From Hymenobacter busanensis (GTDB lineage Bacteria > Bacteroidota > Bacteroidia > Cytophagales > Hymenobacteraceae): DNA of 64,000 bases. Positions 1,994-62,639 of this stretch are shown here, in pieces. The DNA lies in the NCBI RefSeq assembly GCF_008727865.1, contig NZ_VTWU01000002.1, forward strand, positions 434,001 through 498,000. Reading direction: 5' to 3'. A program made the position numbers and the translations under genes. A model generated the notes under the pieces. The model saw nothing but the letters and a program-made list of their open reading frames with translations. It made no database searches and had not been told where the DNA came from. Position 1 is the stretch's first letter. Each line of letters starts with the position of its first letter.

Positions 1994-3388
1994 ATGGCAA
2001 AGAAATGCTATCTGGCGGCGCGGAACCTCAGCGGAGGTCACGTTACCATCTACGCCGAGTATTCACATGCTCGCAAAATCAAGCGCCTTCCTACGGAGGT
2101 GCGCATCCCCCAAGCTCAGTGGGACAACCACAGCCGCACCGTAATCGGCACGGGAGCTAAATCGCATAACAAGAAAGCACTCGATGTGCTGGAAACGCTC
2201 AGTGCCAAGGTTCAGGAGCTGTATCTCGCTAATGGATGTGTATATCCGACCTGCGCCCAGCTTACCAAGTCCTTGGAGATGCGGTCAATTGAATTACAAG
2301 TCGAGGCAGACGAGTTGCCTCTGACGGAAGTGCTGACTAATTGGATGAAGACGAAGGAAGACTGGGCGGCAAGCACCCGTCGCAACTTCAACACAGTGCT
2401 GCACAACATCGAAGACTTCGAGAAGGCACACAAAACCACATGGTACCTGTCTTCGCTCCAAACTGAAGACATACGCCTTTGGCAGCAATGGTTGAAAACT
2501 GCTAAACGAGGCAAGGAGCAACAGGGCTACAATGACCAGACGCTACATAAGCGCGTGCGTCTATTACGGCAATTCCTACGCCAGCATCCTGCTCCCGGTG
2601 TCAACCTCGCTGATGAAGGGGCAAAAGCACTACACGCCGTAATGCAGACCACGCCTTTCGTTCTAGCTCAAGACGATTTGGACGCCATCGAGGCGCTGCC
2701 ATTCGGATTACACTCGCGCCTAGACAAGATTCGGGACCTGCTGGTACTGCAAGCATTCTGCGGCTTGAGGTGGAGCGACCTACGACGCCTCAACAGCCGC
2801 TTCGTCACGGGCAATTTCATCAACATGCCGATGAAGAAAAGCGGGGCGAAAGCATCCAGAGTCCACATCCCAATATTTCATCAGGCTCGGGCTGTTTTAA
2901 ACAAATACACCATCAACGGCGTGCTCAGCTTACCGGCAATCAGTGAGCAAAAGTTCAACGACGGTATAAAGGAAGTTTGCCAACAGGTAGAAAGTTTGCA
3001 CGAGGAGCACACGCAGGATTACCGCCTACGCGGGCAGGCGTTGGAGCGTACGAAGCTCAAATGGGAGTTCGTCACTTCACACACCTTGCGGCGCACTTTC
3101 ATCACGGAATGCCTGAACAAGGGCTTCGCCTTAAAAGAGGTGATGAGTTGGTCGGGGCACCGCACGTTTCTTGCATTCCAGAAATACGTGGGCATTACCG
3201 AACAGCGGGAGGACAGCATTGCCGAGCATCACGAACGTTGGAAAGCTGGTAAACAAAAATCCGCGCCCTCTTCGTCCGCCCCCGTGCTAGCGGCGGTTGA
3301 AGCCATGCTGAATGGTAATTCGTCCTTTGAGGTCAGGCAGGGTTTAGAGCACCTCTTGAAGCAGTATGCAGGCAGTATGCAACCCTAG
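1994..3388 (+). CDS. tyrosine recombinase/integrase (Bacteroidota island type)
   Basis: This is a site-specific recombinase that would integrate and excise the genetic island at this end of the window. The 464-residue protein has an N-terminal Arm-like domain, a core-binding SAM-like helical domain (about 105-215) and a C-terminal catalytic domain. Visible catalytic residues are Arg259 in CGLRWSDL, a Lys in MKKSGAK, His-x-x-Arg in SHTLRRTF, His in SGHRTF, and the nucleophile Tyr398 in FQKYVGI. The reading frame is open from a GTG at 1949, but the ATG at 1994 (MAKKCYLAARN) matches the usual N-terminus of these integrases and is preferred. Its base composition is less GC-rich than the arabinose genes to the right, consistent with acquisition. 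Confidence 0.93.
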   Translation: MAKKCYLAARNLSGGHVTIYAEYSHARKIKRLPTEVRIPQAQWDNHSRTVIGTGAKSHNKKALDVLETLSAKVQELYLANGCVYPTCAQLTKSLEMRSIELQVEADELPLTEVLTNWMKTKEDWAASTRRNFNTVLHNIEDFEKAHKTTWYLSSLQTEDIRLWQQWLKTAKRGKEQQGYNDQTLHKRVRLLRQFLRQHPAPGVNLADEGAKALHAVMQTTPFVLAQDDLDAIEALPFGLHSRLDKIRDLLVLQAFCGLRWSDLRRLNSRFVTGNFINMPMKKSGAKASRVHIPIFHQARAVLNKYTINGVLSLPAISEQKFNDGIKEVCQQVESLHEEHTQDYRLRGQALERTKLKWEFVTSHTLRRTFITECLNKGFALKEVMSWSGHRTFLAFQKYVGITEQREDSIAEHHERWKAGKQKSAPSSSAPVLAAVEAMLNGNSSFEVRQGLEHLLKQYAGSMQP

Positions 3389-3823
3389 CAAATCCTAGCG
3401 GAACCTAGCTCCCATGTATTGGCTGCGAGGTTAGAAAAGCCCCAAAAGCGAGTGTACTGCAGAGTTCAGCAGACGCTAGCAGAAGCCCGGCACCTCCCTA
3501 CGTGACCACACAAAACGCCCTCAGCACCGCGCTGAGGGCGTTTTTGTTTTATATCTATTGCCTTTAGCTCTTTGTGGCTAGAGACTCAGCACAAATCAGA
3601 GCCCTTGTACCCTGGCTGCAATTGCCCGCTTTGCTGAGGCTGACTACTATTTTATCTGCCTTGCCCAAAGCCTGCGTGTGAGCTTTTGCGAGAGACGACA
3701 CCCGGGCTTCACGCATCTTCGACAGCAGCAATTGCTTTTGGGTGCCTCACCGGAATGGCCTTTCTGCTCTCAGCTGCTGCACCCTTGCATTTTACCTAAC
3801 TCCTCGAGATGCTTTTAAACATC
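3389..3823. other. island-chromosome junction, no gene seen
   Basis: Apart from the terminator at 3512-3544, no convincing reading frame or RNA gene is visible here. The integrase is the last island gene and the arabinose genes begin at 3968, so the right attachment site probably lies in this stretch. No tRNA or tmRNA 3' end or direct repeat could be identified to place it, and the left end of the island is outside the window. Confidence 0.4.
3512..3545. terminator. strong intrinsic terminator after the integrase
   Basis: A perfect 14-bp stem (3512-3525 pairs with 3531-3544) closes a 5-nt loop and has a run of T on the right and of A on the left, so it could work in both directions. It isolates the island from the arabinose operon. 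Confidence 0.85.
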
Positions 3824-3868
3824 GTTTACACAAACGATTGTGTAAACCAAGAACCTTTTCTACTTTAG
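3824..3868 (+). promoter_or_regulatory. arabinose operon promoter with overlapping LacI-type operator
   Basis: A perfect inverted repeat has arms GTTTACACAA (3824-3833) and TTGTGTAAAC (3838-3847) around a 4-nt centre. Its TTG at 3838-3840 is placed about 20 nt before a -7-like TACTTTAG (3861-3868), so a bound repressor would cover the -33 region. The same core (TACACAA, 4 nt, TTGTGTA) recurs at 12107-12124, just before the LacI-family gene. Operator and regulator are matched by this repeat; regulation itself is inferred. Confidence 0.75.
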
Positions 3869-3967
3869 GAGCCTGAATAGGGCCGCATTCCCGCATTTCA
3901 GAGGTAGTAGCCGCGCAAGTCGTCCGGTGCCAACCCCTACTGCTTTCATCCTTCTTTCCCCTCGCTC

Positions 3968-5173
3968 ATGCTGTATTCTTCCCGCATTGGTGCTGCCACG
4001 AGTTGTGTGGCCGGATTGGCAGGCTTGCTTGCCGTAACTGCCTGCAATCAGTCGCCTTCCAACGAGCAGGCGGCCTCGCAATCTGCCTCAGCAGCCGACT
4101 CTACGCAGACGATTTCTGGCAGTGCTGCGCCGGCCGTTGCTGATTTTGGCACGACCAAGGCCGGCGAGCAAGCCAAGCTCTATACGCTCACCAACGCCCA
4201 CGGCTTGCAAGTGAGCATCAGCAACTACGGCGGCACGGTAACCAAGCTGCTGGTGCCCGACAAGAACGGCCAGTTGGGCGACGTGGTGCTGGGTTTCGAC
4301 GACGTGAGCGGTTACCAAAGCCCGGAATTCGCCAAATCCAACCCCTACTTCGGGGCCCTGATTGGGCGCTACGGCAACCGCATCCGCGGCGGAAAATTCA
4401 CGCTGAACGGCAAAAATTACACGCTGGCGAAAAACAACGGCGCCAACACCCTGCACGGCGGCAACCAAGGCTACGACCGGGTGATGTGGCAGGCCGAACC
4501 CGGCACCTCGCCCGCGGGCCAAACCCTCACGCTTAGCTACCTGAGCAAAGACGGCGAAGAAGGCTACCCCGGCAACCTGCGCGTGACCGTGGTGTACACG
4601 CTCACCAACGAAGACGCGCTAAAAATCGACTACTCGGCTACCACCGACAAGGCCACGCCCGTCAACCTGACCAACCACGCCTACTTCAACCTGAGCGGGG
4701 GCCAAGACGTGCTCGGCCACGAGGTAACCATTCCGGCCGACCGCTACACGGTGGTGGACGCGGGTCTGATTCCGACCGGCGAGCTACGCCCGGTGAAGGG
4801 CACGCCGTTCGACTTCACCACGCCCCACACCATTGGGGAGCGAATTGCGCAGGTGCCCGGCGGCTACGACCACAACTGGGTGCTGAACCAGCCCAGCGGC
4901 ATGCACGCCGCGGCCACGGTGTACGAGCCCACGTCGGGCCGCACCATGGAGGTGACGACTTCGGAGCCCGGCCTGCAGTTCTACACCGGCAACTTCCTCG
5001 ACGGTACGCTGAAAGGCAAAGGCGGCGCGGTGTACGGCAAGCACGCGGGCTTCTGCATGGAAACCCAGCATTTCCCCGACTCGCCCAACCAGCCCAAATT
5101 CCCGAGCACCATACTGGAGCCCGGCCAAACGCTGCACTCCTCGTCGATTTACCGCTTTAGCGTGCACAAATAA
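3968..5173 (+). CDS. galM: aldose 1-epimerase (mutarotase), lipoprotein
   Basis: It interconverts alpha and beta anomers of aldoses and would supply the anomer used by transport or isomerisation of L-arabinose. The 401-residue product begins with a lipoprotein signal ending in LLAVTAC (Cys about 26), then a Ser/Ala/Gln-rich linker, then the mutarotase beta-sandwich (about 58-400). Active-site landmarks are NTLHGG, the conserved His in NLTNHAYFNLSG and the Glu of CMETQHFPDSPN. The lipid anchor puts it in the periplasm or outer membrane rather than the cytoplasm, a common arrangement in Bacteroidota. It is the first gene of the arabinose operon, about 100 nt downstream of the operator-covered promoter. 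Sugar specificity is inferred from context. Confidence 0.92.
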   Translation: MLYSSRIGAATSCVAGLAGLLAVTACNQSPSNEQAASQSASAADSTQTISGSAAPAVADFGTTKAGEQAKLYTLTNAHGLQVSISNYGGTVTKLLVPDKNGQLGDVVLGFDDVSGYQSPEFAKSNPYFGALIGRYGNRIRGGKFTLNGKNYTLAKNNGANTLHGGNQGYDRVMWQAEPGTSPAGQTLTLSYLSKDGEEGYPGNLRVTVVYTLTNEDALKIDYSATTDKATPVNLTNHAYFNLSGGQDVLGHEVTIPADRYTVVDAGLIPTGELRPVKGTPFDFTTPHTIGERIAQVPGGYDHNWVLNQPSGMHAAATVYEPTSGRTMEVTTSEPGLQFYTGNFLDGTLKGKGGAVYGKHAGFCMETQHFPDSPNQPKFPSTILEPGQTLHSSSIYRFSVHK

Positions 5174-51027: not shown

Positions 51028-51129
51028 CGCGCCGGGGCTGGGCGGGCCACTGCACGCGTTCAACTGCGGCGGGGCTTCGTTCGCCGGAAATGCCGCTTCT
51101 GGTTTCCTGGCCTGCAGTACCTTCCGTTG

Positions 51130-54729
<3,600 letters not shown>

Positions 54730-54761
54730 AATCTGCCTACCGATTTTTTCCGCCCGGCTTC

Positions 54762-54769
54762 TATATTTG
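54762..54769 (+). promoter_or_regulatory. -7 element 5 nt before the LytTR start codon
   Basis: TATATTTG at 54762-54769 matches TAnnTTTG and ends 5 nt before the ATG at 54775, so transcription would begin at or near the A of ATG (leaderless or nearly so). A -33 partner is weak. Confidence 0.4.
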
Positions 54770-54774
54770 ATACC

Positions 54775-55503
54775 ATGCCGCATTCCCCCGTTTCCCCGCT
54801 TCGCTGCCTCGTTGTCGATGATGACCCCATGGCCGTGCAGGTCGTGCAAAACTGCATTGCCAACACCAGCTTTCTAGAAGCCGCGGGCAGTTGCACCAGC
54901 GCCGTGGAAGCCGCCGATGTGCTGCGCTCTACGCCCATCGACCTGCTGTTTCTCGACGTGGAAATGCCGCAAATGTCAGGCATCGACCTGCTCGGCACCT
55001 TGCAGAATCCGCCGTTGGTCGTGCTCATCACCAGCAGCACCGAGTACGCGGTACAGGCCTTTGAGCACAGCGTGGTCGATTACTTGGTGAAGCCTGTTCG
55101 GTATGCACGGTTCCTGCAAGCCGCTCAAAAAGCGCTGGATGCGGTAGAAGCCCGCAGCGCGTCCGACAAAGAACCCACCACGCCCTCCGGCGCCGATTTC
55201 ACGTTCGTGAAAGTCGATAACAAGCTGGTGCGGGTGCTCTTCGACGAGGTGCGCTACGTGGAGGCCCTCGGCGACTACGTGCATGTGGTAACGGGCCAGC
55301 AAAAACTGATTGTGTACAGTACCATGCGGGCAGTGGAAGAGAAATTTCCGGCCCAACAGTTTGTGCGGGTTCACCGCTCGTTTATCGTCAACCTGCGTCA
55401 TATCCAGGCCATCGAAGACAACGCGGTGGTTATCGAAGGCAAGCATATTTCCATCGGCCAAACCTACTTACGCGAGGTGCTGCAACGGCTGAACAAGTTT
55501 TAG
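54775..55503 (+). CDS. LytTR-family response regulator
   Basis: The 242-residue regulator has a receiver domain (about 9-125) with acidic residues in LVVDDDP, phospho-acceptor Asp61 in LLFLDVEMPQMSGIDLL, the Thr/Ser and Lys positions in LITSSTEYAV and YLVKPV. A LytTR DNA-binding domain follows (about 145-240) with VRYVEALGDYVHVVTG and FVRVHRSFIVNLRHI. It lies 45 nt after the hybrid kinase and is the probable output of that sensor. A -7 element close to its start suggests it can also be made alone. Confidence 0.95.
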   Translation: MPHSPVSPLRCLVVDDDPMAVQVVQNCIANTSFLEAAGSCTSAVEAADVLRSTPIDLLFLDVEMPQMSGIDLLGTLQNPPLVVLITSSTEYAVQAFEHSVVDYLVKPVRYARFLQAAQKALDAVEARSASDKEPTTPSGADFTFVKVDNKLVRVLFDEVRYVEALGDYVHVVTGQQKLIVYSTMRAVEEKFPAQQFVRVHRSFIVNLRHIQAIEDNAVVIEGKHISIGQTYLREVLQRLNKF

Positions 55504-56167: not shown

Positions 56168-56351
56168 ACAGTTGCATTCAGCTTATTTTTTTATGGCTCC
56201 AAAAAAGCCCTTTTGGGCCGCTGTGCCCTGATTTTAGACCGGAAAGGATCGGGTGGGCAGTAAAATTTTAGTATTGGTGTATTTTTCCGCTAAATATTTG
56301 TTTTTATTTGCATCAGCATAATCATCCAGCCTCCTTTAAATACCACACCGT

Positions 56352-56729
56352 ATGAAACGCTTCGTTTTTGCTCTTGCTCTTGGTTTTAGTGTTGCCGGTA
56401 TTGCGCAAGCGCAAAGCGGCTCGGATGCTCCTCGCCAGCGTGCTGTTGAAATGACCCGCCAGCTTGCGCCGCAGCTAGGCTTGGACGAAGGCCGCCAGAT
56501 GCAGGTTCGTCGGTTGCTGGTTGAGCGCCTGCAGCAGGAGGAAGAGGTGAACAAAATGTACGCCGGCGACCAAACCATTCACGCTGCCAAGCTGCGCGAA
56601 ATCCTGAACGGCTACGAAACCCAGCTGCAGCAAGTCCTCACGCCCGCGCAGCTGCACCGCTATCAGCAGCTGGCTGCCAATAGCAACGCCACCCAGACCA
56701 GCGTGCAAACTGCCGCTGCTCAGCGCTAG
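56352..56729 (+). CDS. small secreted Spy/CpxP-like protein
   Basis: The 125-residue product has a signal peptide (MKRFVFALALGFSVAGIAQA) and a helical mature part with repeated Gln/Leu/Arg heptads. It ends its core with QVLTPAQLHRYQQLA, an LTxxQ-type motif as in Spy/CpxP-like periplasmic proteins. These often act as chaperones or sensors, but the similarity is short and the role here is uncertain. The 185-nt region before it is AT-rich and contains TATTTG-like elements. Confidence 0.7.
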   Translation: MKRFVFALALGFSVAGIAQAQSGSDAPRQRAVEMTRQLAPQLGLDEGRQMQVRRLLVERLQQEEEVNKMYAGDQTIHAAKLREILNGYETQLQQVLTPAQLHRYQQLAANSNATQTSVQTAAAQR

Positions 56730-56750
56730 CCTAGGCCTGCTTTACAACCA

Positions 56751-58259
56751 TTAGGTATGGATAGCTCCCTGGCGCAATAAGCCCAGCGTGATTACCCATA
56801 GATTCTCGTAGGGAATAATTTCAATATCGGAAAATGCTTCGCCAGGCGGTGGTGTTTCGCGCAAGCGGTCTACCAACGCCTGGCCTTTTTCCTCACACAA
56901 TACCGGGTTATAGTCTACTTTAACGGTCAGTTGCAGCAGCCGGAAAAACAACCGGCTGCGCAGCGTCGACGCATCGCGCAGGTGCGCGGTTTCGTACTTC
57001 CGCAAGCTTTCCAGTCGGAGCAGCAAGGCTTCGGCGTTGTTCTGCCGCAGGTAGTAGAGGAACTGAAGGATCAGAATTGCCACGTTGTACCCGCGCTTGT
57101 CGCGGCTATGGTCGGGGATGCTCTGTACCAATTGTGCGAAGTGCACCGGCCGCAACCCGGCCTCTTCCGGACGAATGAAGTATAGGTAAGCCCGCATCAG
57201 TTCCCAGCGCTGCACCGCTGGCCGGGTGAGCTTGGTTACGAAAGGATTCTGCTGCATTCGTTTCAGCAGTTTGCCAGCTTGGTCGTATTCGCCGCTGTGC
57301 ATGGCCAGCAAAAAGTAGTTCTCCAGCATACTGAACCAGTTGTTGGTCGATCGGCTGAAGGCTTTGAGGTAATCCTCTGCCAGCGCAAGGCCCTCTTCGA
57401 GCCGGCGTGCCCGCAAGTGAGCATAAAGACTATAGTACTTGGTGAAGCGGCTATCAAAACGCTTGCGGTTTAGTTTGCCCTTGGCAAATTCTTGCTCTGC
57501 TTCGGTTGTAATTCGAATAATCTCGTCGAAGTTGCCTGGCAGTTCCTGCTGCATCAACCTCAGCTTGAGCAGGATGTCGTAAATGGTGAACGAACGCGTT
57601 TTCCGGTACAACTCCGTCAGCCGGGTAATTACGTCGGGCAGGTACTGTAGCAAACGCCGGCGCGCGTGTACTGTGCGCATCAAGTCCATTTTTGCCCCCC
57701 AGTACAGCCGCATTGCTTCCCGCTCGGCCATCAGCACTTCCTGCAGGCGTTCTAGTTGCCGCACCGTTTGGCGGTACTGCGAATAGTTATTGGTTTCGAC
57801 GTAGAGCCGACGCAACAACTCCAAACTGCTGACTGCATGTTGGGTGAACTCACCATCCAATGCCAGCCGCAGAACTTTCCGCAGAATTTGGGCAATAATG
57901 GTTCGTTCGCTTTCCCACCACAGTACATGCGCCTGGTGCAACAGGTCAACGCATTGCTGCTCGTGCCGCAGAAACACGGGATGGCGCGGGTCGGAGTAGT
58001 CTAGAAAATACAGGTGGTTGAGCAACTTCTCTTGGAGTCGCTGCTTGATTTTCCGTACTGCCGCCTGGTTTTTAGCCGAGGCGCTGCCATAAAGAGTTTT
58101 TGCAACCTGCAAACTGGTTACATTGGCATCCGTTGCCAGCAAGTCGAGTAATTCTTCTTCTCGGTTGCGGCTGCCTTTCGCCCTTCCCACGCCCAATAGC
58201 GGCAACGTAGTCAACCGGCGCTTCGTCACAATTTTAGCTAGATTGTTCAGCTCGTGCAT
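56751..58259 (-). CDS. helical (TPR-like) protein with possible N-terminal winged helix
   Basis: This 502-residue protein is not a recognised family. Residues about 33-90 (EEELLDLLATDANVTSLQVA, then QAAVRKIKQRLQEKLLNHLYF) read like a winged-helix domain. From about 100 to 480 the sequence is a long series of amphipathic helices with alternating Leu/Tyr/Arg, as in tetratricopeptide-type repeats (for example LRRLYVETNNYSQYRQTVRQL and YSLYAHLRARRLEEGLALAE). It has no signal peptide, so it is probably cytoplasmic. It diverges from the small repeat-peptide gene and from a peptide ABC transporter. Resemblance in layout to peptide-binding RRNPP-type regulators is an inference only. Confidence 0.65.
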   Translation of the reverse strand: MHELNNLAKIVTKRRLTTLPLLGVGRAKGSRNREEELLDLLATDANVTSLQVAKTLYGSASAKNQAAVRKIKQRLQEKLLNHLYFLDYSDPRHPVFLRHEQQCVDLLHQAHVLWWESERTIIAQILRKVLRLALDGEFTQHAVSSLELLRRLYVETNNYSQYRQTVRQLERLQEVLMAEREAMRLYWGAKMDLMRTVHARRRLLQYLPDVITRLTELYRKTRSFTIYDILLKLRLMQQELPGNFDEIIRITTEAEQEFAKGKLNRKRFDSRFTKYYSLYAHLRARRLEEGLALAEDYLKAFSRSTNNWFSMLENYFLLAMHSGEYDQAGKLLKRMQQNPFVTKLTRPAVQRWELMRAYLYFIRPEEAGLRPVHFAQLVQSIPDHSRDKRGYNVAILILQFLYYLRQNNAEALLLRLESLRKYETAHLRDASTLRSRLFFRLLQLTVKVDYNPVLCEEKGQALVDRLRETPPPGEAFSDIEIIPYENLWVITLGLLRQGAIHT

Positions 58260-58613
58260 GGCTAATTCTGCATTATATGCGTGCTAGGGCATTTTTTTCT
58301 ATTTCTCTCTTGCCAGCAAGAACGTCACAAAAACTCAACAACCTTCCTTTCTCCTGCAAATTGCTGCGCTCATCTTTGCTACGTGAATACATGGGTGGTA
58401 GGCAAGCATTTTGTCACATTCGCACACAAAATGAAAAGCTCAGCAATTTGAAAAATGTATTCCAAACGCCAAATTGCACTATTCTATAATTTAAGTTAAA
58501 TAATTTTTTTTTATAGTGATAGTCACACAGCCTAGCTAACCTTCCTTTATTTCGGCATAAAAACGCAGGAAGTTTGTGTCAGTCAAACAGTTGACCCACC
58601 CACCTGTACTACT
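58260..58613. promoter_or_regulatory. AT-rich divergent control region with two copies of a bipartite motif
   Basis: This 354-nt region separates the helical protein gene from the repeat-peptide gene. It holds two copies of GTCAC-N13-CCTTCCTTT (58324-58350 and 58522-58548). The second has the longer form ATAGTCAC (58519-58526) and CCTTCCTTTAT (58540-58550), and it ends 63 nt before the peptide's ATG. A third copy lies after the downstream permease genes at 62766-62797. A T-tract at 58501-58512 lies between the copies and may end a short transcript from the first one. Whether the motif is a promoter or a regulator site cannot be told. Confidence 0.65.
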
Positions 58614-58844
58614 ATGCTGGAGCTCCTTACCCTCGCCCTCCTACAGTTTCAAATCCTTGGCTTTTCCCCTGAAGCTGCTTCGTTGGACGCTTCTGTCCGG
58701 GTTGAGCAGACGTCGAGTGCCGATAGCGGCGGTACCGGCTGGGGTGACGGCACGACGTGTGAATCGGGCGGTACGGGCTGGGGCGACGGCACCACGGCCA
58801 ACGACTCGGGCGGAACCGGCTGGGGCGACGGCACCAAGAACTAA
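58614..58844 (+). CDS. 76-residue peptide with three SGGTGWGDGT repeats
   Basis: The frame starts with ATG 63 nt after a bipartite motif. The N-terminal 20 residues are hydrophobic (LLTLALLQFQILGF) and could be a membrane-targeting or leader segment, but have no basic n-region. A spacer follows to about residue 37, then three near-identical units SGGTGWGDGT at 38-47, 51-60 and 65-74. The units differ at synonymous positions in DNA, so the protein repeat is probably selected. One Cys (49) is present. No peptidase or modifying enzyme was recognised nearby. It lies between a divergent helical protein and a peptide ABC transporter; it may be a precursor or signalling peptide, but that is a hypothesis. 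Confidence 0.6.
   Translation: MLELLTLALLQFQILGFSPEAASLDASVRVEQTSSADSGGTGWGDGTTCESGGTGWGDGTTANDSGGTGWGDGTKN
58725..58835 (+). repeat. tandem coding repeat of the small peptide
   Basis: Three 30-nt units at 58725-58754, 58764-58793 and 58806-58835 encode SGGTGWGDGT each time. Codon choices differ (for example GGT/GGA for Gly, ACC/ACG for Thr), so this is not a recent exact duplication. Confidence 0.8.
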
Positions 58845-58901
58845 GGCGCTTCTATCTTGGGGCAGGTTGGGTACCTTGCATGCCGCAACTTCTGCCGCCT
58901 T

Positions 58902-60647
58902 ATGATTCGATTGCTCCTGCGTGGTGTTCTTGCACTACTCACGGTTGGACTTATAGCTTGTTCTTCGCCTGCCCCATTGCAGGATGCGCCGACTACCGTA
59001 CGGGTCAGTTGGCCGCGGGACCCGGAGTCGCTCAACCCGGTTGTGCTGCCCAACGCTTTTGCGGTGCAAATCAACAATCTGCTCTACCAAAGTTTACTGG
59101 TAGTTGATGGCCCACGGAGGCGCTATGTCCCGTGGCTTGCTACCGCCCTGCCCGAAACCCGCCGGGCGGGCCCTATAACTTACCTGACGTATACTATCCG
59201 CCCTGAAGCTACCTGGGACAACGGCCAGCCGATAACGGGGCACGATGTGTTGTTTTCGTTACGTGTTCTGTTCTGCCCTGGCGTGCCCAACGAGCGAATC
59301 AGCAGCGGGCTATCCTTCGTCCGCAATCTGGAAATTGACCCAGCGGATGCCCGACGGTTCACCTTCGTATGCGCTGGCTTTGCTCCCGAGTACGGCATTA
59401 CCAGCGGCGACTTCCCTATTCTACCGGAATACTTACTCGACCCGCAACACGCATTGCGGCCCGTACCGCTGGCGGAACTTACCGCCGACTCGTTGACTTC
59501 GGCCAGCAAGACCGCCTGCGCCGCGTTTGCTGCGCAATTCAACCTCGCGGAAAAGTGGCGCGACCCGCAGCAGGTTCGTGGCAGTGGCCCTTACGAATTG
59601 GTAAGCTGGCAGAGTGGTCAGCGGCTGGTGTTGCGGCGCAAAAGCAAGTGGTGGGCCGATAAGATGGCGGCTGCTTCGCCCATGCTCGCGGCCCGCCCCT
59701 CTCGCTTGGAGTTCCACATCATTCCCGATCCGACAACGGCCCTGCTTGCCTTGCGCCGCGGCGACGTTGATGTGTATCCGAACATGCCTGCAGCCGATTT
59801 TGAGCGGCTGCGCACGTCGTCGGACGCGGCGCGCTTTCATTTGTACACGCCTGCCTCCTACCGCATGGTGGCGCTGGAAATGAATACACGCCAGCCTATG
59901 TTGCGGGAATCGGCCACCCGGCAGGCGCTGTTGCACCTGCTCGATGTGCCGCAACTCATGCGCGCCACGCAATATGGCCTGGGGCAGCTCAGCGTAGGAT
60001 TGGTCAGTCCGCGTGAGCGGTGGGCATACCACGACAGCTTGCCGTTGCGGAGCTACAATCCGCAGAAAGCAAAAGCCCTGTTGCGCGCTGCCGGCTGGCA
60101 ATTTACAGGCACCCGCTGGCAACGCCACGCAAGTGCGCAAGGTTCTCAGCCGCTTGCTCTGCAACTGCATTACCGTGCTGGTGACCGAACTTTTGAAACG
60201 GCCGCGCTCCTATTCCAACAAGCAGCGAAGGAACTGAAAATCCCGGTGTCTCTTCGCCCCACCGAGGCGTCGCTGCTGTCGGAGGTGCGGCGCAACGGCC
60301 AGTACGATATGGTGTTTCGCTCGTTCTACGGCAACCCCTTCTCCTATGATTTGCGGCCGATTCTGCACACCGCCAGCATTGGGCTGACCGGGGGCAACAC
60401 CTCAGGATTTGGTACGCCCAGCTCCGACCGCCTCCTCGAACAGCTAGCCGCGGCAGAAGACTCAACGCAAAAGAAACGTCTGCTGCATCGGCTGCAGCTC
60501 ATGCTCTACGAGCAAGCACCGCTAGGTGTGCTATTCTACGAACCCAACCGGCTGGCAGTGGCTAGGCGGTTTGCTGACGTGCGCCCAGCGGGCCCCGAGC
60601 CCGGTTATAACCTGGCGTCGTTTGCCCTGAAGGCTTCGGCGAACTAA
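58902..60647 (+). CDS. peptide/solute-binding lipoprotein (ABC transporter family 5)
   Basis: A 581-residue family 5 (DppA/OppA-like) binding protein. The lipoprotein signal is LLRGVLALLTVGLIACSSPAP with Cys near 20. The family core shows RVSWPRDPESLNPV, WDNGQPITGHDVLFSLRVLF, then VRGSGPYELVSW and the C-terminal GVLFYEPNRLAVARRF. It would bind a peptide or similar solute in the periplasm and deliver it to the two permeases encoded next. ATG at 58902 is preferred over an upstream in-frame start at 58857. It lies 57 nt after the repeat-peptide gene, so that peptide or a fragment of it is a candidate ligand. The substrate is unknown. Confidence 0.9.
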   Translation: MIRLLLRGVLALLTVGLIACSSPAPLQDAPTTVRVSWPRDPESLNPVVLPNAFAVQINNLLYQSLLVVDGPRRRYVPWLATALPETRRAGPITYLTYTIRPEATWDNGQPITGHDVLFSLRVLFCPGVPNERISSGLSFVRNLEIDPADARRFTFVCAGFAPEYGITSGDFPILPEYLLDPQHALRPVPLAELTADSLTSASKTACAAFAAQFNLAEKWRDPQQVRGSGPYELVSWQSGQRLVLRRKSKWWADKMAAASPMLAARPSRLEFHIIPDPTTALLALRRGDVDVYPNMPAADFERLRTSSDAARFHLYTPASYRMVALEMNTRQPMLRESATRQALLHLLDVPQLMRATQYGLGQLSVGLVSPRERWAYHDSLPLRSYNPQKAKALLRAAGWQFTGTRWQRHASAQGSQPLALQLHYRAGDRTFETAALLFQQAAKELKIPVSLRPTEASLLSEVRRNGQYDMVFRSFYGNPFSYDLRPILHTASIGLTGGNTSGFGTPSSDRLLEQLAAAEDSTQKKRLLHRLQLMLYEQAPLGVLFYEPNRLAVARRFADVRPAGPEPGYNLASFALKASAN

Positions 60648-60657
60648 GGTGGCGGTG

Positions 60658-61671
60658 ATGGGGCACGCGCTATGGCTTCGCCTGAGTCGGGCTCTGCTGG
60701 CGTTGTGGCTGGTCATATCCATCATCTTTCTATTGAGCCATAGCCTTCCTCGGGTAGCCTTACAGTCCGAAGACACCGGACTGAGGACCGGTTTTTTGCC
60801 CGAAAGAGCGGCGGCTGAATTGCGTTACCAACGACGCTTGGGGCTGGATCAGCCGGTTTTTTATTTCCGACTGGCACCCTGGCACTGGCATGGGACGACC
60901 AATCAGTACCACCGCTGGCTTACAGACCTGTTGCGAGGTGACTTGGGGGCTTCCTACCGCGACGGGCGCCCCAGCACGGCAGTGCTGCGCGAAACAGTAG
61001 GGGTAACCTTGCCCTTGGTGAGCCTGGCTTTTATCGGATGCACCTTCCTTTCCATAAACCTCGCATTGGCAATGGCCATGTGGCCCAGGGTACGGTCGGG
61101 TATGCTCGTGCTGTTGCACGGACTGGAGGCGTTGCCCTTGTTTGTGCTGGGTTTGCTGTTGCTGCTGCTGTTGGCCAACCCCGATGCGCTGGCGCTCTTC
61201 CCGGCCTACGGCTTAGGCTCGGCCGACCTTCAAGAACTTACGTGGCTGCAGCGTCTGCCTTATCTGGTACTTCCCGTCAGCAGTTTGGTACTGGTGAACC
61301 TGCCGGCGTTGGTATTGACATTAGATGCCGCGCTGCAACAAAGCCGCGTCCAACCTTACATGACTACAGCCCGGGCCAAAGGCGCTTCCATAGCTGGCGT
61401 GTGGATTCGTCATGCCCTTCCCAATGCCCTCCTGCCGTTTCTTACGCGCCTAACCGATTTACTACCGGCTTTGGTCGGTGGCGCGGTTGTAATAGAGGTG
61501 CTGTTTGCGCTGCCTGGGCTGGGGCGGCTGTTGCTTGCAGCCGGAGCTACACGAGACTATCCGGTATTGCTAGGCGGCGTATTGATGGCGGCAGTGGTTC
61601 GGCTGGTTTCGTGGCTGCTGGCCGACCTTCTTCAGGCAGTAGCTGACCCTCGCACCCGAACCAGCAAATGA
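60658..61671 (+). CDS. peptide ABC transporter permease (DppB-like)
   Basis: A 337-residue inner-membrane permease with about six hydrophobic spans, beginning near LLALWLVISIIFLLSHSLP as in DppB/OppB proteins. The EAA-like cytoplasmic loop (TTARAKGASIAGVWIRHALP) that contacts the ATPase is present. It starts 10 nt after the binding-protein gene; an earlier GTG at 60649 is possible. The stop TGA overlaps the next ATG (ATGA), a mark of translational coupling. Confidence 0.88.
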   Translation: MGHALWLRLSRALLALWLVISIIFLLSHSLPRVALQSEDTGLRTGFLPERAAAELRYQRRLGLDQPVFYFRLAPWHWHGTTNQYHRWLTDLLRGDLGASYRDGRPSTAVLRETVGVTLPLVSLAFIGCTFLSINLALAMAMWPRVRSGMLVLLHGLEALPLFVLGLLLLLLLANPDALALFPAYGLGSADLQELTWLQRLPYLVLPVSSLVLVNLPALVLTLDAALQQSRVQPYMTTARAKGASIAGVWIRHALPNALLPFLTRLTDLLPALVGGAVVIEVLFALPGLGRLLLAAGATRDYPVLLGGVLMAAVVRLVSWLLADLLQAVADPRTRTSK

Positions 61672-62639
61672 GAGTATCCGGCAAGACAGGTTGGTTGCAG
61701 AATGCAGCGTACGCTTGGCTTATGGCCTTGCTCCTGCTGGCTTTTTTTGCGCCGTGCCTTCCGTTGCAGTGGGCATTTGGCAGGCTCGATGTACTGCGCA
61801 TAGCAGCCCCTCCCTCCGCAATCCACTACCTGGGCACCGACCCATACGGCCGCGACGTGCTGGCCGATCTACTGCTTGGGGCCCGTACGCTGCTCGCTGT
61901 TGGATTACCTGCTGCGCTGCTCACGTCTCTCATCGGAATATTACTTGGAGCCAGCGCGGGCTTTTGGGGCAACCAACAGCTCCGCATACCTAGTGTTTAC
62001 TTCGTAGGTGTACTTCCAGGCATTCTGGCCGTTTGCGTTTTTGGTGTTTCCTGGCCAGTTGTTCCGGCGGCGTTATTAGGCCTGATTGCGTCTTGGGCAC
62101 TTCACTACTTCCGGTCAAGCCAATACAAGATTGTGTTTCCTGTCGACTCCATCGTTCTGGCAGCAATGCTGTGGCTTGGCGCAATTCCGCGGATAATACT
62201 GATCCTAGTCCTTTGTGCCGCCATAGACCTCACGCCCCCCGCACTGGTAGCCCTGCTTGCCCTGACCAGCTGGCCGGCGACAGCGCGGCTGGCCCGCGCA
62301 GAGGTGCAACGCCTGCGTATGTTGCCATTCATAGAAGCGGCAAAGGTCAGCGGGTTACCTCCTATCCGCATAGTATGGCATCACATCTTGCCCAATGCCT
62401 GGCCCGTATTGCGCGCTGCCATACCGCTCAACCTGAGTGCGTGCCTAACCTTCCAAACCACGCTAGCCTTCTTGGGACTTGGGCTGCCCGATGGTGCAAC
62501 CGATTGGGGACGTATGTTGAGCCTTGCTAAGCTTGAGCCAACCGCTTGGTGGTTAATTGTATTCCCATGCGTGGCCCTGGCCACAACCTTTCTGGCCCTG
62601 CGTGTCGCCACACCTACCCATTCCCGCACTAGCGCTTAG
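61668..62639 (+). CDS. peptide ABC transporter permease (DppC-like)
   Basis: A 323-residue permease partner of the DppB-like protein. The N-terminal span LMALLLLAFFAPCLPLQWAF is followed by a DppC-type periplasmic segment with YLGTDPYGRDVLADLLLGAR. The EAA-like loop RMLPFIEAAKVSGLPPIRIV precedes the last spans. It overlaps the previous gene by 4 nt (ATGA). No ATPase (DppD/DppF-type) gene follows; the next gene is ftsH on the other strand, so the ATPase must come from elsewhere. Confidence 0.88.
   Translation: MRVSGKTGWLQNAAYAWLMALLLLAFFAPCLPLQWAFGRLDVLRIAAPPSAIHYLGTDPYGRDVLADLLLGARTLLAVGLPAALLTSLIGILLGASAGFWGNQQLRIPSVYFVGVLPGILAVCVFGVSWPVVPAALLGLIASWALHYFRSSQYKIVFPVDSIVLAAMLWLGAIPRIILILVLCAAIDLTPPALVALLALTSWPATARLARAEVQRLRMLPFIEAAKVSGLPPIRIVWHHILPNAWPVLRAAIPLNLSACLTFQTTLAFLGLGLPDGATDWGRMLSLAKLEPTAWWLIVFPCVALATTFLALRVATPTHSRTSA

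Follow-up and report, generated by a model that had tools for sequence, protein, structure and literature searches.

A 64,000-nt stretch of the Hymenobacter busanensis genome (NCBI RefSeq assembly GCF_008727865.1, contig NZ_VTWU01000002.1, positions 434,001 to 498,000; the whole stretch is called the window below, and positions in H. busanensis are counted within it) carries a small peptide gene between the gene of a possible sensor, a long helical protein, and the genes of a peptide importer, an arrangement which suggests that the product is a cell-to-cell peptide signal. On balance, we favour reading this locus as a peptide-signalling module made up of a precursor, an importer and a solenoid receptor. 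The genes described in the original prediction, which had been made from the sequence alone, are all in place. The precursor, of 76 amino acids (aa), is encoded by an open reading frame (ORF) at 58614-58844 on the plus strand (ORF list, alignment of relatives, synteny). Divergent from it, on the minus strand, lies the 502-aa helical protein proposed as a cytoplasmic peptide receptor (56751-58259; ORF list, homologue alignment, predicted structure). Downstream of the peptide, on the plus strand, follow a family 5 peptide-binding lipoprotein (SBP5) proposed as import receptor (58902-60647; PF00496, E 1.6e-53) and two ATP-binding cassette (ABC) permeases, at 60649-61671 (PF00528, E 1.9e-23) and 61668-62639 (PF00528, E 5.9e-16), so that the peptide, SBP5 and both permeases share one strand and diverge from the helical gene. 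The ORF of SBP5 begins with a TTG (58857), yet the ATG at 58902 suits a lipoprotein better as start codon, and counted from this ATG the gap to the peptide ORF is the 57 nt given before.

Conservation of this gene order among relatives had been proposed as a check, and all 36 family genomes examined retain the order. In a set of 58 genomes we found the helical protein in 41, comprising all 36 of its own family (f1) and 5 of the 22 others. Every one of the 36 family genomes has an SBP5 homologue divergent from the helical gene, with 36-62% identity over the best stretch in the 35 relatives (several loci stop within the SBP5 gene), and this homologue is followed by permease 1 in 12/12 longer family regions and then by permease 2 in 11 of them, the L072 region ending early. 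The small peptide ORF lies between the helical gene and SBP5 in 34 of the 36 genomes by a fixed rule, and in the other two (L022 and L028) by eye, its start being ~270-380 nt from the helical start. A small hydrophobic ORF divergent from the gene of a cytoplasmic protein could also encode a peptide toxin, for which the helical protein would serve as antitoxin. However, the pair is retained together with SBP5 across the entire family sample, 28 of the 36 genomes have a single helical match, conservation peaks at the hydrophilic C-terminus of the peptide and PADLOC gives no convincing match, all of which make a toxin very improbable.

The peptide begins with a hydrophobic segment, MLELLTLALLQFQILGFS, which contains no Lys or Arg (58614-58667, plus strand, defined by alignment). 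The repeat search placed the three SGGTGWGDGT units, each a proposed signal unit, at 58725-58754 (aa 38-47), 58764-58793 (aa 51-60) and 58806-58835 (aa 65-74) of the same strand, within a tandem array that spans 58728-58836 with a score of 139. Written as a degenerate DNA pattern, the unit is found three times in the H. busanensis genome, always inside the peptide ORF, and in none of the 57 other genomes, so that the array is not due to chance. A rule modelled on the peptide retrieves a single ORF from the 64-kb window, the 76-aa peptide itself. The three units, compared over nine codons, differ at 4 nucleotides, all of them in third codon positions, and among repeat units from 11 loci 49 variable codon columns are synonymous versus 2 that are not, a count which is biased because the units were chosen through their amino-acid pattern. 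Twenty-five of the 29 aligned peptides, drawn from 25 of the 36 family genomes and not including that of the window, were compared within nine groups, each confined to one genus; the synonymous (pS) and amino acid-changing (pN) proportions were 0.54 and 0.18 for codons 2-18, and 0.56 and 0.09 for the last 7 codons. This excess of synonymous over amino-acid changes indicates, indirectly, that the peptide is translated, as the original prediction had supposed. It also bears on the possibility that the short ORF, which immediately precedes SBP5 and shares its strand, is a leader peptide that regulates the importer operon by attenuation. Selection on the amino acids at both ends of the peptide, multiplication of its units to an ORF of up to 249 aa, the occurrence of a peptide without SBP5 (L086, see below) and the lack of any Rfam match in 56200-59000 all speak against such a leader, which we consider highly unlikely.

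The 29 of the 36 family genomes covered by the peptide alignment share one precursor layout: a hydrophobic start resembling MLELLIAALIQ, a variable middle that is often rich in Thr, Ser or Pro, and a conserved C-terminal Trp motif resembling GGTGWGEG or GTSGWDDRN. Residue 3 is Glu or Asp in 25 of the 29, and Trp is the fifth residue from the C-terminus in 20. Multiplication is restricted to the C-terminal unit, of which 21 precursors carry a single copy and eight carry 2-17: three in the window peptide, 3, 2 and 3 in L006-L008, six each in L010 and L012, five in L018 and 17 in L021. In L013 three peptide genes stand in tandem. Most precursors (26/29) are 50-88 aa long, and the repeats extend them to 118 aa in L010, 120 aa in L012 and 249 aa in L021.

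The intergenic regions upstream of these 29 peptides contain a common promoter-like module, GT(C/T)ACA, usually 13 nt, TTTCCTTT, usually 23-24 nt, and CTTTG, presumably a Bacteroidota-type promoter with an upstream site. The window has two copies on the plus strand, a distal one at 58324-58378 (GTCACA-N13-CTTCCTTT-N23-CTTTG) and a proximal one at 58522-58576 (GTCACA-N13-CTTCCTTT-N23-GTTTG), both located by the pattern scan. The pattern was defined after inspection of the same loci; the proximal module is found in 28 of the 29 regions with at least 16 of its 19 positions matching (0 in one shuffled set), a simpler version of it also in 28/29 versus a shuffle mean of 0.14, and the distal module, ~200 nt further upstream, in 19/29 versus 1 in one shuffled set and a mean of 0.28/29 over 50 shuffles. 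Two promoter patterns searched in 33 genomes gave 11 + 7 = 18 places, of which 10 belong to peptide loci. Since the reversed patterns gave 6 + 8 = 14, the eight places away from peptide loci are at background and we claim no regulon. An extra copy of the module stands ~4 kb from a peptide locus on the same contig (L121; G001:C28:421147-421201).

To judge the proposed receptor, the window protein and its L039 homologue were modelled with AlphaFold. Both are predicted to be all-helical, with 25 helices in the window protein (pLDDT 85.0, pTM 0.73) and 23 in the homologue (pLDDT 86.1, pTM 0.79). The protein has 502 aa in the window and 499-519 aa in 12 homologues, and the residues invariant in 13 sequences include W308, F309, G390, N392, R434 and IEIIPY at 479-484. 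The possible winged helix at the N-terminus did not hold up, this part being a three-helix bundle without a beta wing in both models. The best 50 fold matches of the L039 homologue, all weaker than E 0.001, are largely to peptide-binding proteins with tetratricopeptide repeats (TPRs): 34 of them are LGN/Pins (13), kinesin light chain (11), NprR (8) or Rap (2), with NprR at best in rank 2 (E 0.006), RapI in rank 34 (TM 0.60 by target length) and Rap-Phi3T also among the weak matches. TPR_8, a TPR family, was touched by one of 13 homologues at E 0.005. TPR-like solenoids readily match one another, and therefore the fold data go no further than a helical repeat with a possible capacity for peptide binding: as modelled, the protein is an alpha solenoid whose groove may fit a peptide. 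NNH6 and HTH_RNase_II were tried as families for the helical protein and rejected, their matches being sub-threshold. In five loci (L028, L030, L073, L076 and L077) a second helical copy stands directly behind the first; no peptide was seen at the second copies of L076, L077 and L091. Downstream of a second helical gene, L039 (8096-8569) and L040 (9181-9666) have similar ORFs of ~160 aa, both with VRADVVLGSPSANC, which are a possible partner or output. At a second locus of genome G003 (L079, 3121-6521) a helical paralogue diverges from an SBP5 gene ~230 nt away, with no peptide gene seen between them.

Helical homologues also occur well beyond the family, on nine named contigs with 23-31% identity, and in 25 genomes of a 395-genome sample of the phylum. 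L086, from another family of the same order, has the peptide and no SBP5 in 11.5 kb. Six helical genes from Saprospiraceae and other Bacteroidota metagenome-assembled genomes have upstream, on the same strand, a short ORF ending in VI(I/V)(I/V)DITG(V/A), two of these ORFs being only 16 aa long, and one further helical gene is preceded by an ORF ending in VIIVVDITMP (loci L034, L035, L037, L038, L039 and L040); we take these endings to resemble those of streptococcal SHP pheromones. Another class (family f43) has divergent ORFs with starts like MDLITALLIFFG and the endings IDRRED, IDRTED or IDRLED (L099, L100, L104), as well as nearby ORFs of 17-53 aa ending in Y(I/L)IDRGE(E/N)N, which occurs singly in L096 and L099 and as three repeats within one ORF in L104 and L105. 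In L109 a peptide-like ORF, MMALLIALLIQLG...LLIVDLSVV, combines a hydrophobic start with an aliphatic-Asp ending. Within 700 nt upstream, 19 of 40 distant helical copies have a peptide-like ORF by these patterns, versus 123 of 2955 control windows (4%); two of the copies (L055 and L115) are one place, giving a non-redundant count of 18/39, and the rule misses peptide-like ORFs in L105, L107 and L108. Of 20 loci outside the family, four (L096, L097, L098 and L103) carry an SBP5 homologue, 25-27% identical, in convergent orientation to the helical gene; the region covered at the remaining 16 showed none. The system seems wider than the Cytophagales scope given to it at first, and linkage to the importer seems not to be constant. 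It is about an even chance, in our judgement, that these loci make up a phylum-wide class of Bacteroidota pheromones, in which cytoplasmic solenoid receptors of a new family, not detectably related in sequence to RRNPP proteins, would each be paired with a small precursor, the C-terminal codes would be lineage-specific (Trp-acidic, VIIIDITGV, YIIDRGEEN), dosage would be set by tandem units or genes, and SBP5 would be linked in two gene orders in two classes. In L100 (genome G156, ~3005-3995) six small peptide-like genes diverge from one helical gene, two of them long forms with a hydrophobic start ending in IDRRED or IDRTED and four of them short forms ending in TLPYIIDRGEEN.

Several results weigh against a signalling module. 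Neither the window's helical protein nor its N-terminus has a match above cut-off in Pfam, NCBIfam, PADLOC or PDB sequences, and no TPR or helix-turn-helix (HTH) family is detected in it by sequence. Foldseek gave no fold match at E 0.001 or better for either model, the listed matches of the window protein being solenoids of many kinds with the phage receptor AimR in rank 34; the viral structure library likewise gave nothing at E 0.001 or better, and Rap and AimR are absent from its best 50 matches. No promoter module stands above background at other genes of the 33 genomes, so that no output is visible. Among the distant loci no peptide is found by the patterns at 21 of the 40 helical copies, at least two of the 19 hits look accidental (L034 at 5841, and L113), the patterns were written after some of the loci had been viewed, and of the convergent-SBP5 loci only L096 has a convincing peptide, L097, L098 and L103 being without; the second helical copies of L079 and L080 lack one too. 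Lys and Arg are absent from residues 1-20 in 26 of the 29 precursors, which argues against a canonical Sec signal, and the H. busanensis genome has no match to C39 peptidase or AgrB, the control for the latter being weak (positive in 1/14 control genomes, below cut-off). Finally, this genome has only one SBP5 match besides that of the window (2 in total), and the best named model for the window SBP5 is NikA, far below cut-off.

The points on export would suit a peptide that is not released at all and stays anchored in the membrane as a small subunit or regulator; its C-terminal motif, carried on a low-complexity linker, would bind the helical protein or the importer and control uptake from inside. 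The hydrophobic and mostly non-basic N-terminus, the Thr/Ser linker, the constant linkage to SBP5 in the family and the missing exporters are all in keeping with it. Nevertheless, arrays of up to 17 terminal units and peptide genes in tandem are better explained by a dosage of released units, forms of 16-19 aa without a hydrophobic start occur beside distant homologues (L037, L100) and L086 has the peptide without SBP5, and we consider an unreleased peptide unlikely. The affinities of SBP5, which scores best against NikA and also matches CntA, both below cut-off, could point to a secreted natural product or metal binder, such as a ribosomally synthesized and post-translationally modified peptide (RiPP), a bacteriocin or a metallophore, which SBP5 would retrieve or against which it would give self-protection, with the helical protein as a local regulator. 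The W-x-D units, which we take to resemble cyclophane cores, would agree with this. The cyclophane idea of the original prediction gained nothing, however, since no maturase, of the radical-SAM cyclophane RiPP kind or other, was recognised among the genes adjoining the window peptide (the genome and its relatives were not searched for radical SAM enzymes) and the endings beside distant helical genes have no Trp. With 16 of 20 loci outside the family also showing no SBP5, a natural product or metal binder appears decidedly unlikely.

The signalling module can be compared with the RRNPP(A) systems (Rap-Phr, Rgg-SHP, NprR-NprX, PlcR-PapR and AimR-AimP), with which it shares a small precursor gene adjoining a helical-repeat protein of ~500 aa, a candidate C-terminal signal, a peptide importer and the weak fold match to NprR and Rap. 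Unlike them, it belongs to another phylum, has no detectable sequence relation or TPR family, has a mostly non-basic precursor start, and in the family has a genetically linked SBP5 and a divergent gene order. RRNPP receptors, Rap excepted, have an N-terminal HTH DNA-binding domain, and the three-helix bundle of the window protein has neither a wing nor an HTH family. Five criteria for RRNPP quorum sensing are set out in the available part of PMC10075063. Precursor size (10-100 aa) agrees, as does adjacency of receptor and precursor; the 502-aa receptor is at the border of ~250-500 aa; for a Sec-secreted or SHP-like precursor we have the starts without basic residues (26/29, judged without SignalP); and TPRs detectable by hidden Markov models were not found in the window protein. 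For this last reason the system is not filed as an RRNPP member, though it plausibly works like one. Our best reading is a system of peptide pheromones in Bacteroidota that functions in the manner of RRNPP systems and falls short of membership on one test; the analogy first proposed is supported in part, by synteny, the solenoid model and selection on the peptide, and not by a TPR family or a wing.

Other likenesses are more partial, and those to cited systems are limited to the available parts of the sources. Tandem pheromones inside one precursor are known in Rap/Phr systems (PMC11343458) and likewise give several signal units per precursor; here there are up to 17 (L021), and whole precursor genes in tandem (L013, L100). 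The starts of PptAB-type precursors are described as basic (PMC10075063), unlike those of the 26 precursors above, whereas a hydrophobic start, or a 16-19-aa form without leader (L037, L100), and an aliphatic C-terminal code such as VIIVDITGV recall Rgg-SHP and leaderless communication peptides (PMC10075063, PMC10518010). The groove of kinesin light chain TPRs reads Trp followed by acidic residues in its cargo, and family peptides end similarly in WDDRN, WDTRD or WGETH; that protein is a eukaryotic cargo adaptor, and this is a resemblance only. For export of the double-glycine (C39) or Agr type, the own genome offers no peptidase or AgrB. Signalling through re-imported peptides and cytoplasmic receptors has been described mainly for Gram-positive Bacillota (available parts of PMC10075063 and PMC11343458), and the available main text of PMC9765709 contains none of the words Bacteroid, Gram-negative and Proteobacteria. 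A full-text literature search, judged by titles and abstract starts and with most subscription papers and all bioRxiv preprints outside its reach, gave no Bacteroidota system of the re-imported-peptide type.

Around the module, the next long ORF past the permeases is on the opposite strand, and hence no ATPase gene stands behind them; a 730-aa open frame on another contig of the genome has two matches to the Opp ATPase-tail family. A 125-aa small protein (56352-56729) is convergent with the helical gene and has homologues in 11 of 39 loci, its own included. Further away, 51127-55503 holds a large ORF resembling a hybrid sensor kinase and then a LytTR-type regulator (translations judged by eye).

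In the signalling module as we picture it, the small gene would encode a precursor, and the signal would be its conserved C-terminal unit, which in the window peptide is SGGTGWGDGT and is present three times. By means of its hydrophobic N-terminus the precursor would be brought to the inner membrane and released there, and proteases would set the units free. SBP5 and the two permeases, driven by an Opp-type ATPase encoded elsewhere, would re-import the unit, which the 502-residue solenoid would then bind in its groove, altering gene expression. The first target would probably be the gene of the precursor, reached through its GTYACA/TTTCCTTT/CTTTG modules. If this is true, a candidate receptor, signal sequence, importer and promoter are all named and open to direct test, and the large phylum Bacteroidota would gain a peptide language of its own.

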